This document shows positions 37,491-42,715 of a stretch of DNA of 64,000 nucleotides, piece by piece. The position numbers were made by a program, and so were the translations under genes. How positions within the stretch are numbered: the stretch's first letter is position 1; each line of letters starts with the position of its first letter. Under the pieces are notes generated by a model. That model saw only the letters and a program-made list of their open reading frames with translations, made no database searches and was not told the DNA's origin. Location of the stretch: assembly GCA_016930175.1 (NCBI GenBank), contig JAFGHJ010000003.1, positions 1 to 64,000 on the forward strand, in the 5' to 3' direction. The DNA comes from Caldifarciminota bacterium. GTDB taxonomy: Bacteria; Hydrothermota; UBA3072.

Positions 37491-37652
37491 ACAAACAAAT
37501 AAAATATTTGTGCTATTCGTGTAATTTGTTGTTCCTCTTTGGTGAGTTGAGGGGGGGTCTCAAAAAACACAATAAAAAATTTAGTGTGTTTAGTGTATTT
37601 CGTGGTTAAATAAATTTGTTTTTTGTTTGTGTTTTAGTGCCTTCGTGGCTAT
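37491..37652 (-). repeat. Inverted word-like repeats downstream of mfd
   Basis: An inverted ACACGAATA-type copy (GTGCTATTCGTGTAATTTGT, 37510), then GTGTGTTTAGTGTATTTCGT (37584) and GTGCCTTCGTGGCTATTTG (37637), the last reaching the mfd stop codon. Confidence 0.6.
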
Positions 37653-40582
37653 TTGTTAAAGGTTTCCAGGAATTCAAAAACAGAATCGCGTGGTACCAAA
37701 ACAGTCAGGGTTTTATCCTTATAAGAAAATTTAATTCCATCTATGGTTGAGATGAGTTTTTCTATTTGAGATTTACTCAAAGTTTTTTTAGTTTCGCAAG
37801 AGAAGTATTTAATTCCTTCTTCTATTTTTGTTATTTCGGAAGCCTCCGCAAGGATTTTAATCCTTGCCCATTTTAATATTCGGATAACATTGGGAGGTGT
37901 TTCCCCGAATCTGTCTTTTATTTCGTTCTCTAATTTTTCAACTTCCGGCAAATTCTCGACGGAAGAAATTCTTCGGTATAGTTCTATTCTATCATCTTCT
38001 TCCGGAATGTAGCTCTTTGGAATATAAAAAGAACCCTGCAAAAAAACCTCTACTTCGGGTTTTTCTATTATTGTCTCGCCTTTGGCTTTTTTAATTGCTT
38101 CGTTTAATATTTTTAGATATAATTTGTAACCGATTGTCGCAATATGACCATGTTGCTCCTTGCCTAGAATTTCGCCGGCACCTCTTATTTCCAAATCCTT
38201 AAGTGAAATTTTAAAACCGGAACCTAACTGGGAGTATGTTTTAATTGTCGATATTCTCTCTCTTGCTTTACCTTTCAGCTCTCCCGAAATAATGAGATAG
38301 CAGAAACCCTGCCTTAAGGAACGTCCGACCCTTCCCCTTAACTGGTGTAAGTCAGCCAGGCCGAAATTTTCAGCCTTATCTATTATTATAGTATTGACGT
38401 TAGGTAAATCGAGCCCTGATTCTATAATAGCTGTGGAGAGCAAGAGGTCATATTTGTGATTAAGGAAATCCGTCATTCTTTTCTCAAGGATTTCTGTTGA
38501 TAACTGTCCGTGCCCCACAATTATTCTAACCTCAGGAATGATTTTTTCTAACTTCTTTCTTACCGATTCGATGCTGGATACTCTGTTGTGCACAAAGAAA
38601 ACCTGTCCGCCTCTTTCCGTTTCTCTTAAGATAGCGTCTTTAATTTTTCTCTCATCCCAATGAATTACGTTGGTTACAACGTCTCTTCTTCCATGGGGTG
38701 GAGTTTGTATTACTGAAAGGTCTCTTATCCCGAGTAGTGAGAATTGCAGCGTGCGGGGTATTGGGGTCGCGCTCATTGAAAGGACATCGATATTAGTACG
38801 CAACTCTTTTAATTTCTCCTTCTGTCTGACTCCGAAACGCTGCTCTTCGTCGATTATCAGCACCCCCAGGTCTTTAAAATCAATTCTTTTATTTAGAAGC
38901 ATATGAGTGCCTATAATTATATCGCATTTCCCGGCTCTGATTTTCTCCAGTATTTCTTTCTCTTTCTTTTTTGTGAATCTTGAGAGCAGTTCAATATTTA
39001 TCGGGAATTTTTTTAGCCTTTCTTTAAATGTCCGGTAATGTTGTTCTGCTAGCAGAGTCGTTGGTGTTATAATTGCCGACTGTTTCGATTCTATTGCAGC
39101 CTTAAATGCCGTACGAAGGGCAACCTCGGTTTTTCCAAATCCGACTTCTCCGCAAAGGAGTCTATCCATCGGTTTTGTCTTTTCCATATCGGTATAAACT
39201 TTATTTATAGCTTCTTCCTGGTCATTTGTTTCTTGAAAGGGAAATGACAGTTCGAGTTCACTTATAAGAGAATTAACCTTAGCATATGAATACCCTTTAG
39301 CAACTGTTCTTTTTGCGTAAAGCAGGAGAAGTTCCTCTGCATACTTCTCCAGTTCTTTCTTGACCTTTCTTTTTTTTGTTTCCCATTTGTTTTTTGAAAG
39401 TTCCGAAAGTTCCGGTTCTTTTTCTCCTCCTGAGATATATTGTGTTAAAAGACCGGATTTTTCTACCGGAACAAGTATCCTGCTTTTATTTTTATATTCT
39501 AGTACGAGACATTCCCTCTTTCTTCTGTCGATATCTACTATTTCAAGACCTTCAAAGCGGCCTATTCCAAAGTCTTCGTGTACAATATAATTTCCCCGAA
39601 TAAATTCCCTTTCAGCCTCAACTGGAATTTCTTCTTTTTTTGTTTTGTGTTTTGCCCGCAACGCTCCGAAAATATCGGATTCCGTAAATAAGGCTAATTT
39701 TATTTTATCTATAATAAAACCTTTTGATAGATAAGTATCTAAATACTCGATTTGCGGAAAATCATTGTCGAATAAGTCGCGAAGACGATGTATTTCACCG
39801 GGAGTACCCGCGGCAATGAAAATACGATAATTTTTTAGTTTTCCTAGTTCCTGTTTGAAGTAATCGAGATTCCTGTGAAAGGAAATTGCCGGGGTGCATG
39901 GTATAGAGTACCCTGTGGGATTTAGCTTTACGTCTACTTTAAAATCTTTTGTTTCCGGACCTATTTTGAAAAATTCTCCGAGTATTTCTTCGAGAGGTTT
40001 ACTCTCTTCTTTTTTAATAAGGAGAGTTGTGTTTTTTGTTTTTGCTGTAGATAATTGATTGCTGGGATTGAAAAATCTAAGGGAGGCTATTTTTTCATCT
40101 TCCAATTCTATTCTGAGGGGGTTTTTATGATTTAAAGCCCATACGTCAACTATTCCTCCTCGATTAACGTATTCCCCTTCTTCATAAACACGGTTTCTTC
40201 GTACTAATCCTCCGCTATCGAGATAAAGCAGCAGTTTTTCTAAGGAAATGTTATTACCCAGTGTAAGGTTTACGGATTCTTGTTCGGGTATTTCCATCGC
40301 AAGGTTTCCTTCTTCAATGATTAAAAGGTCGAAGTCTTTTGAGGCAATTATTGCACCGATACGGTTTAGATTCTCCTCAGTTAAAAGGAGAACTTTGTCA
40401 AAAAAGAATTCTGCGTCCTGAGTAACTTTTAAGGGGTCTTCTTCCGTTAGTAGAACAAGAGGTGCCTTATCTTTAAAGCCATAAGCTAAAAGTAATTCTC
40501 CGGGATAACTTGGAGGGTTAAGAACCCTCTTTTTGTTTATTTCTTTTTTTAGGAAATCATATAAACTTTGTTTAAACTTCAC
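37649..40582 (-). CDS. mfd: Transcription-repair coupling factor Mfd
   Basis: The 977-residue protein has the UvrB-like N-terminal domain, the RNA-polymerase interaction (CarD/RID) domain (GNYIVHEDFGIGRFEGLEIVDI), and SF2 helicase motifs: GEVGFGKTEVALR, IIGTHMLL, IIDEEQRFGVRQKE, SATPIPRTL, and the RecG-like TRG region (LDLPNVNTIIIDKAENFGLADLHQLRGRVGRSLRQG). A C-terminal domain closes it. It is shorter than E. coli Mfd (1148), mainly at the N-terminus. The start is GTG overlapping the rnfA stop (GTGA), making it the last gene of the Rnf operon. Confidence 0.93.
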   Translation of the reverse strand: MKFKQSLYDFLKKEINKKRVLNPPSYPGELLLAYGFKDKAPLVLLTEEDPLKVTQDAEFFFDKVLLLTEENLNRIGAIIASKDFDLLIIEEGNLAMEIPEQESVNLTLGNNISLEKLLLYLDSGGLVRRNRVYEEGEYVNRGGIVDVWALNHKNPLRIELEDEKIASLRFFNPSNQLSTAKTKNTTLLIKKEESKPLEEILGEFFKIGPETKDFKVDVKLNPTGYSIPCTPAISFHRNLDYFKQELGKLKNYRIFIAAGTPGEIHRLRDLFDNDFPQIEYLDTYLSKGFIIDKIKLALFTESDIFGALRAKHKTKKEEIPVEAEREFIRGNYIVHEDFGIGRFEGLEIVDIDRRKRECLVLEYKNKSRILVPVEKSGLLTQYISGGEKEPELSELSKNKWETKKRKVKKELEKYAEELLLLYAKRTVAKGYSYAKVNSLISELELSFPFQETNDQEEAINKVYTDMEKTKPMDRLLCGEVGFGKTEVALRTAFKAAIESKQSAIITPTTLLAEQHYRTFKERLKKFPINIELLSRFTKKKEKEILEKIRAGKCDIIIGTHMLLNKRIDFKDLGVLIIDEEQRFGVRQKEKLKELRTNIDVLSMSATPIPRTLQFSLLGIRDLSVIQTPPHGRRDVVTNVIHWDERKIKDAILRETERGGQVFFVHNRVSSIESVRKKLEKIIPEVRIIVGHGQLSTEILEKRMTDFLNHKYDLLLSTAIIESGLDLPNVNTIIIDKAENFGLADLHQLRGRVGRSLRQGFCYLIISGELKGKARERISTIKTYSQLGSGFKISLKDLEIRGAGEILGKEQHGHIATIGYKLYLKILNEAIKKAKGETIIEKPEVEVFLQGSFYIPKSYIPEEDDRIELYRRISSVENLPEVEKLENEIKDRFGETPPNVIRILKWARIKILAEASEITKIEEGIKYFSCETKKTLSKSQIEKLISTIDGIKFSYKDKTLTVLVPRDSVFEFLETFNK

Positions 40583-41166
40583 AGAGAAAGGCCCAGAAAG
40601 CCCGAGAAGCCGAGAAATGCGAGTCCCATAAGAGCGGCAATTACGAAAGATATTGGGAGTCCCTTGAGAGGTTCAGGTATGGGAGCGTTTTCCAATCTTT
40701 CGCGAATTGAACTTATAAGAACTATTGCGAGTAGGAAGCCTAAGCCGCTGCTGATTGCGAAGACGATTCCTGAAATGAGATTGAAATTATTGTCAATATT
40801 TAGAAATGCGACTCCCAGGATTGCGCAGTTGGTTGTTATAAGAGGTAGGAATATTCCAAGAGCGGAATAAAGTGCCGGTAATTGTTTTTTAAAGAACAGC
40901 TCAAGGAATTGGACGAGAGAGGCAATGACAAGGATGAATACAACCGTTCGAAGATAAATAAGGTTCAGCGGTATAAGAATAAATTGATATAAGAACCATG
41001 TTATTACTGTTGCAAGCGTCATTACGAATATAACGCTTATACCCATCGAAGCGGCTGTTTCCATTCTTCTTGAAACACCGAAGAAAGGGCATAAACCTAA
41101 GAATTTCATTAATATTATATTATTTACCAGGAAAGCAGACAGGAATATCAAAAATACGTTATCCAT
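40579..41166 (-). CDS. rnfA: Rnf complex subunit RnfA
   Basis: The 195-residue membrane protein has six helices and RnfA features: LVNNIILMKFLGLCPFFGVS with the conserved cysteine that binds iron in the membrane, and TTNCAILGVAFLN with the second cysteine. RnfA and RnfE together hold the intramembrane [2Fe-2S] cluster in the electron path from ferredoxin to NAD. It starts with TAATG overlap to rnfE. Confidence 0.93.
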   Translation of the reverse strand: MDNVFLIFLSAFLVNNIILMKFLGLCPFFGVSRRMETAASMGISVIFVMTLATVITWFLYQFILIPLNLIYLRTVVFILVIASLVQFLELFFKKQLPALYSALGIFLPLITTNCAILGVAFLNIDNNFNLISGIVFAISSGLGFLLAIVLISSIRERLENAPIPEPLKGLPISFVIAALMGLAFLGFSGFLGLSL

Positions 41167-41774
41167 TATTTTTTCCTCCAGTAGTTGAATAGACCCATAA
41201 GCAGAGCGATAGTAAGAAAGCCTCCCGGCGGAAGAATTAGCAGGATAATTGATGACTCCGTAAAAGAGGCGCCGAGAATTTTAAAACCGTCGAATATCCC
41301 GGGTATACTCATCCAGATACCCTGTCCTAAGATTTCTCTGATGGTTCCCATTATAAAGAGTACCAGGGTAAATCCGATTCCGGCTCCGAGTCCGTCCATA
41401 AATGACAAATGTACCGGATTTTTGAAAGCGAATCCTTCCGCTCTTCCGAGTATACCGCAGTTTACAACGATTAGAGGAACGAATACACCCAGCTGAACAG
41501 AAAGCGGAGGAAGGTAAGCTTTTAAAGCATAATCTATTATAGTTACAAACGACGCAATTATAATAATGAATATAGGAATTCTTAAATTGGCAGGGATAAT
41601 TTTTCTTAAAGAGGAAACGAATAAATTAGAGAGTACAAAAACGAAGGTTGCAGCGATACCCATTCCGATTCCGTTGTATGCCGATGTCGTTACGGCAAGC
41701 GTAGGGCAGAGACCGATTGCCAGAACCAGGATTAAATTGTTTTTAACTATTCCGTCTATAAGGGTACGTTTTAT
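41166..41774 (-). CDS. rnfE: Rnf complex subunit RnfE, ATA start
   Basis: From the first ATG (41663) the protein would miss the conserved N-terminus. In frame upstream is KRTLIDGIVKNNLILVLAIGLCPTLAVTTSAYNGIGMG, the standard RnfE beginning with its cluster cysteine. The second cysteine is in VVNCGILGRAEGFA. The upstream frame has no ATG, GTG or TTG; GGGAG followed six bases later by ATA (41774-41772) is the best start, giving 202 residues. ATA overlaps the rnfG stop as ATAA. RnfE pairs with RnfA in the inner membrane. Confidence 0.9.
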   Translation of the reverse strand: MKRTLIDGIVKNNLILVLAIGLCPTLAVTTSAYNGIGMGIAATFVFVLSNLFVSSLRKIIPANLRIPIFIIIIASFVTIIDYALKAYLPPLSVQLGVFVPLIVVNCGILGRAEGFAFKNPVHLSFMDGLGAGIGFTLVLFIMGTIREILGQGIWMSIPGIFDGFKILGASFTESSIILLILPPGGFLTIALLMGLFNYWRKK

Positions 41775-42715
41775 TTCTCTCTCCCTTCGATATATTTTTT
41801 ATATACCGTTTTTATTTCTTTTCGGACTTTTTCCGCAATAACTTCAAAATCGGAGGAAAATTTCAATTTGTCGATGTTCTTTATTAGAACATCTTTGAAT
41901 ACTTTTTCTAAGTATTCTTTCATTGCTTTACTCTCTTTGGTAATTTCCTCTTTATCGGTTTCTGAATTTTCTATGAAAATCGATATGTCTTTAATTACTT
42001 TGTTTTCGATTTGAGTAAAGAGTCTAAAAGCAAAAGCAGAATCCGTGATAGTCGAAAGATAGACAAAATTATTGGAGATCTGCCAAAGCTGGTTAGGCAT
42101 TATTTCTGCAAGTGCGGAATCGGTTATTTGTTCTAAAGAATCAAGGAAGTTTTTTGAAAATTCTCTAAAAGCATAGCCGGGTAGGAGTTTACTGTATCGT
42201 ATTAGTCCTTCCCTTACTGCGTCGGTTGCAGCTCTGGACGAGATGGTTGCGGAGGTTATAGCGTCTATTTTTCCCTGTTGTTTATCTTTCGTAAGAAAGA
42301 TTTCATCTGCCGAGAGATTGTTGAATTGGTCTAAGAAGGGCTCTTCGGCAATTTTCATTCCAAGACCCGGTGTTTCCGAGAGTTCCTCTTTTGGTATTTT
42401 AACTCGTATTATCCTTCCTGTCGAGTCGACTCCTATAATCGGTCTGATTATACCGGAATATCCTTTTTTCTCGGATCTGAAAACAATGCCTATATACTTA
42501 TCTCCTTGTAAAACTTTCCATAAGGTATCAGCTTTTATTTCTTCGAAGCGGACCGATGGATCGGCGAATACTTCACTTAATGATTTCTTTAATGATTCTT
42601 CTCTGTATTTTGAAATTATTGGAGCTGTTTGTTTATATACGAAGGAAAGAAGAAATGCCGATGTTATACCCACTAAAAACAAGACAGATACTTCCTTTAC
42701 TTTTTTCAACATCAT
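41771..42715 (-). CDS. rnfG: Rnf complex subunit RnfG with long C-terminal extension
   Basis: The 314-residue protein has an N-terminal membrane anchor (VSVLFLVGITSAFLLSFVY), the FMN-binding domain (GYSGIIRPIIGVDSTGRI; LSETPGLGMKI) and the covalent flavin threonine motif as ITSATISSRAA, where the usual glycine of SGAT is serine. Typical RnfG has about 200 residues. Here about 130 further residues follow (from ALAEIMPNQLWQIS to the end), charged and helical, unlike anything I know in RnfG. Two ATG codons start it; GGGAGG fits the second. Confidence 0.88.
   Translation of the reverse strand: MMLKKVKEVSVLFLVGITSAFLLSFVYKQTAPIISKYREESLKKSLSEVFADPSVRFEEIKADTLWKVLQGDKYIGIVFRSEKKGYSGIIRPIIGVDSTGRIIRVKIPKEELSETPGLGMKIAEEPFLDQFNNLSADEIFLTKDKQQGKIDAITSATISSRAATDAVREGLIRYSKLLPGYAFREFSKNFLDSLEQITDSALAEIMPNQLWQISNNFVYLSTITDSAFAFRLFTQIENKVIKDISIFIENSETDKEEITKESKAMKEYLEKVFKDVLIKNIDKLKFSSDFEVIAEKVRKEIKTVYKKYIEGREK

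Follow-up and report, generated by a model that had tools for sequence, protein, structure and literature searches.

An AUA codon overlapping the rnfG stop as the probable start of rnfE, and further apparent AUA starts, in a WOR-3 clade

Where translation of rnfE begins was the question raised by an rnf locus in the 64,000-nucleotide stretch of the genome of an uncultured WOR-3 bacterium (phylum Caldifarciminota in current NCBI naming) analysed here and referred to as the window, as the earliest canonical start codon of this ion-pump subunit gene is its 38th. The encoded protein matched NCBIfam model TIGR01948 with 236.4 bits (cut-off 213.4) over profile positions 3-195 of 196, beginning at residue 4, and the Rnf-Nqr family PF02508 at 1.2e-61; together with the gene order rnfC-D-G-E-A at the locus, this places it in RnfE. 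The frame ends with a stop at 41168-41166 and is closed upstream by an in-frame TAA (Table 1), and on the minus strand of the window codons 1-37 contain no ATG, GTG or TTG. A sequence-only reading of this DNA had proposed that rnfE starts at an ATA sharing a four-base overlap, ATAA, with the rnfG stop. The observations on which that proposal was built were all recovered: 37 extra codons devoid of a canonical start, GGGAG six bases ahead of the ATA, the overlap itself (read directly, with an offset of +1, in the window and in a second genome of the genus) and a conserved N-terminus preceding the first ATG, from within which the family model aligns. The junction reads ATCGAAGGGAGAGAGAAATAAAACGTACC on the minus strand.

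Table 1. Positions in the window of rnfE, its proposed start and the neighbouring rnf genes
Feature	Position	Strand	Basis
rnfE, 202 codons from the proposed AUA	41166..41774	minus	ORF reading and family models
ATA, proposed start codon of rnfE	41772..41774	minus	sequence and comparison with related genomes
rnfG stop TAA overlapping the rnfE start	41771..41773	minus	sequence, related junctions
GGGAG, Shine-Dalgarno-like, 6 bases 5' of ATA	41781..41785	minus	sequence; equal spacing in G001
TAA closing the rnfE frame upstream, in frame	41799..41801	minus	8 codons before ATA
ATG, codon 38, earliest canonical start of rnfE	41661..41663	minus	ORF reading; RnfE alignment
Cys23 codon of rnfE, 5' of the first ATG	41706..41708	minus	metal-centre ligand (RnfA/RnfE), invariant
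rnfG, upstream of rnfE	41771..42715	minus	ORF; family model 89 bits, cut-off 102
rnfA, downstream of rnfE	40579..41166	minus	ATG overlaps rnfE stop by one base (TAATG); model match above cut-off
rnfC	45011-43698	minus	named from order and sequence only
rnfD	43698-42715	minus	named from order and sequence only

RnfG itself is 314 residues long, and its model spans residues 11-171 only, so that about 140 residues at the C-terminus extend beyond it. Directly after rnfA lies a 977-residue ORF resembling mfd (37649-40582, minus strand), whose GTG start overlaps the rnfA stop; rnfB was not seen adjoining rnfA at this locus.

The codons ahead of the first ATG were compared between the genome of the window (G000) and a second one (G001), which together make up our sample of the genus; the genomes examined appear to be metagenome assemblies. 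In codons 2-37, pN was 0.13 and pS 0.73, as against 0.10 and 0.76 in the remaining gene, and 18 of the 27 codons of this stretch that encode an identical amino acid differ between the two genomes, which indicates that codons 2-37 are under purifying selection. The N-terminal part is likewise conserved among 110 related RnfE loci: Gly8, Asn13 and Cys23, all upstream of the first ATG, are invariant (110/110), as are Cys106 and Met38, the latter as an internal residue. In Clostridium tetanomorphum RnfE, Cys26 and Cys109, located in helices I and IV, are two of the four cysteines binding the metal site between RnfA and RnfE (PMC9588780); judged by motif position and spacing, Cys23 and Cys106 correspond to them. 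A protein initiated at Met38 would be without helix I and without the iron-cluster ligand Cys23. Production of RnfE solely from the ATG at codon 38, its earliest canonical start, or a gene that has decayed or been mis-sequenced, is the least probable of the alternatives, in view of the selection acting on codons 2-37, the invariant cysteine within them, the internal position of Met38 in all RnfE sequences and the G001 assembly.

G001 likewise has ATA as the homologous rnfE codon, preceded by GGGAG at equal distance and set in an identical ATAA overlap. Since this genome was assembled separately, a sequencing error at the ATA, which the sequence-only reading had advised checking, was excluded. 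The two RnfE proteins are about 80% identical and silent sites are near saturation, so that the survival of the ATA argues for its being kept. Each of the four other genera in the family has ATG as the homologous codon, and in three of these the junction is ATGA, the upstream frame ending in TGA; from this arrangement, one G-to-A change would have altered the stop (TGA to TAA) and the start (ATG to ATA) together. The earlier comparison to ATGA coupling is thus literally apt at this junction.

We propose that rnfE is very probably translated from the AUA at its first codon, by coupled restart with the ordinary initiator tRNA, the codon having arisen from AUG and been kept in the genus. The ATA, the overlap, their conservation and the absence of another canonical start can be read in the DNA itself; the restart step we infer from the overlap alone. 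Ribosomes terminating rnfG at UAA, with the GGGAG of the message near the 16S tail, would shift back by a single base and reinitiate at the overlapping AUA, which the initiator tRNA (anticodon CAU) would decode despite the third-position mismatch, stabilised by the Shine-Dalgarno helix and by the coupling. The first residue of RnfE would be formyl-methionine, and output would be expected to be lower than from AUG. The single G-to-A change, turning AUGA into AUAA, would have preserved both the stop and a usable start and then been retained in the genus. The geometry and the +1 offset equal those of the AUGA four-base overlaps of termination-coupled restart, and sister genera carry AUGA at this very junction; the coupling is here a prediction, and, unlike in AUGA overlaps, UAA or UAG takes the place of UGA, forcing AUA as the start.

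Other near-cognate codons in the frame, namely the ATA at 41795-41793 or ATC/CTG at codons 15-16, have only a very slim chance of being the start, as GGGAG is properly spaced in both genomes only at codon 1, which is also the one codon that matches the ATG of the sister genera in the alignment. A start codon would not be needed at all if a programmed -1 frameshift at the end of rnfG fused RnfG to RnfE. The rnfE frame is indeed at -1 relative to rnfG and open for eight codons before the ATA, and G001 has a true -1 slippery heptamer, G GGA AAA, ahead of the stop; the window, however, reads A GAG AAA TAA there, which is not slippery, so that the site is not conserved. Moreover, three sister genera start rnfE at an ATG within an ATGA junction, the soluble domain of RnfG is extracellular (PMC9588780) and would make a poor fusion partner, and an ATA is also seen in a cyclic-nucleotide-binding (CNMP) gene that has no coding frame upstream. 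The fusion, while the foremost of the alternatives, was rejected as highly improbable.

The occurrence of numerous AUA starts within one clade would also be expected if AUA were read as methionine in the lineage, or if a dedicated initiator tRNA served it. Internal ATA codons in G000 align with isoleucine in 70% of cases and with methionine in 1.7%, a fraction like that of ATT (1.3%), which indicates that AUA inside genes is isoleucine and led us to reject recoding. By an anticodon-loop pattern search, initiator-type tRNAs were found in all six family genomes and were only of the CAU type, though modifications are invisible in sequence; the two copies in G000, both at contig ends, are probably one gene. 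Either form of special decoding thus appears very unlikely, slightly more so than a start at another near-cognate codon. No change in IF3 offered a convincing explanation: the family proteins carry Trp at the position of E. coli Arg129 and Phe/Tyr at that of Arg99, but the same sites also vary among IF3 proteins with solved structures, so these differences are not persuasive. Avoidance of UGA as the force driving ATGA to ATAA was also excluded, as UGA terminates 128 of 388 sampled genes. RNA folding at the rnfG/rnfE junction gave nothing firm (z -2.0), and no relatives were found among viral contigs. In vitro, IF3 tolerates some non-Watson-Crick third-base pairs and excludes weak ones (PMC10158994), and either low output or a relaxed checkpoint would therefore be expected in this clade.

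To look for further ATA starts, we compared G000 and G001 reciprocally over the parts sampled, 1.11 of 2.34 Mb in the former and 1.17 of ~2.0 Mb in the latter, and obtained 424 coding-like ortholog pairs. Genes were selected if homology and a coding pattern continued far upstream of the first canonical start, to a point where a recognisable gene would be expected to begin; antisense hits and short upstream ones, also contained in the comparison list, were excluded by eye. This left rnfE, tyrS, pth, infC and the CNMP gene and, in G000 alone, a metY-like gene. For pth and infC, the copies in G001 were brought in through a search, so the sample is not unbiased, and genes with a canonical start shortly after an ATA could not be judged, which makes the number of ATA genes a minimum.

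The pth gene has ATA at the position of Pth Met1 in all six family genomes, in each case overlapping the upstream stop as ATAG or ATAA. This junction is ATAA in G019 and G030 (another family of the phylum) and ATGA in G009. The upstream gene, presumably rplY (L25) given this neighbourhood, encodes a C-terminal tail rich in Glu/Lys. At tyrS, where GGAGG precedes the ATA, five of six family genomes have ATA and the sixth an ATG one codon earlier; the junctions are ATAA or ATAG in G000, G003 and G005, and ATGA in G004. The infC start is ATT in this genus; it is ATA in the four other genera and in four more genomes belonging to the class. The CNMP gene, situated behind tRNA-Lys, has ATA in G001, G002 and G005 and ATG in G004; in G000 it has ATA or TTG. 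The statement in the sequence-only reading that ATA starts are very rare in bacteria therefore holds in general and fails for this clade, with at least four further genes showing an apparent ATA start.

A homologous ATA, with no ATG, GTG or TTG there, is found for rnfE in both genomes of the genus, and for pth in 6/6 and tyrS in 5/6 genomes of the family. With ATA at 44% of isoleucine usage, 13 ATA out of 13 would have p ~2e-5, a rough guide only, as the calculation assumes an independence that is untrue. A Shine-Dalgarno motif accompanied ATA in 8 of 149 cases, and other codons at comparable positions in 91 of 3394; this excess is only modest, and the count was not retained as stand-alone evidence, being weak by itself.

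In rnfE, pth and tyrS, ribosomes ending one base away would assist initiation at AUA; the CNMP gene, lacking an upstream coding frame, suggests that coupling is not required in every case. A broader and more tentative proposal, to which we give somewhat less than an even chance, is that this clade uses AUA regularly as a fourth start codon, in essential genes, that AUAA and AUAG are recurrent junctions swapping with AUGA by single base changes, and that start selection has been relaxed somehow, through IF3, initiator tRNA modification or the ribosome.

AUA starts are already documented for infC, ccpN and citZ. In Staphylococcus aureus, AUA or AUU starts have been described for ccpN (also in Bacillus subtilis), infC, citZ and cvfC1, and AUA starts with a strong Shine-Dalgarno sequence give about 10% of the AUG output, with ccpN reaching as much as 30% in rich medium (PMC13009471). 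The starts reported here are of the ccpN type, a conserved AUA behind a strong Shine-Dalgarno sequence with no canonical start at the site. They differ in that the S. aureus starts were mapped by ribosome profiling and ccpN is a repressor (PMC13009471), whereas the apparent starts of this clade, in a different phylum, were read from sequence and belong to genes for peptidyl-tRNA hydrolase, tyrosyl-tRNA synthetase and a subunit of an ion pump, several of them in stop/start overlaps. The Streptomyces sigR gene has a GTC start repressed by IF3 (PMC5472188), similarly an odd start codon on one important gene; the codon differs, and IF3 regulation is shown for sigR only.

The infC gene of E. coli starts with AUU, through which IF3 regulates its own synthesis, and infC likewise begins with ATT in this genus, its relatives having ATA. 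To our knowledge, rnfE, pth and tyrS are not targets of such IF3-type control. A literature search, with many journals outside its coverage, found no report of pth, tyrS or rnfE beginning at AUA, nor of ATAA/ATAG overlaps as a class or AUA starts in WOR-3. What seems to be new is a clade that apparently uses AUA repeatedly, often in stop/start overlaps.

Gene finders limited to ATG, GTG and TTG would truncate or miss proteins of this clade and, as related genomes have ATA at several other genes, probably mis-start all of them. With canonical starts only, in most family genomes Pth would be without its GLGNP/RHN region and TyrS without ~20-180 N-terminal residues. If these starts are real, the clade offers natural material for studying how bacteria can live with AUA as the start of essential genes, and the ATGA/ATAA toggle is a way for a start codon to change while the stop stays.

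The metY-like gene (L158, minus strand, ~13685-12378, G000 contig C16) reads AGGGAGGaaaATAAAACAAAAAAG, compared with GAGGAAAATG in its G001 homologue; its ATA is out of frame near an A run, so that the cause must be an indel, slippage or the use of a different start. The pth of G008 (L252) has GAGGAGGaaaaATC at the start position and a GTG only at codon 7, and possibly starts at ATC. A GGDEF-type protein of 289 codons (17024-16155, minus strand) is without a canonical start for 41 codons and may start at an ATT located 7 bases past GGGAG. Finally, a minus-strand ORF of ~104 codons in L146 (G000 contig C4; reverse-complement 2580-2916), HEPN-like by eye, reads GGAGGtttaaaATAAAT and has no canonical start for 44 codons.
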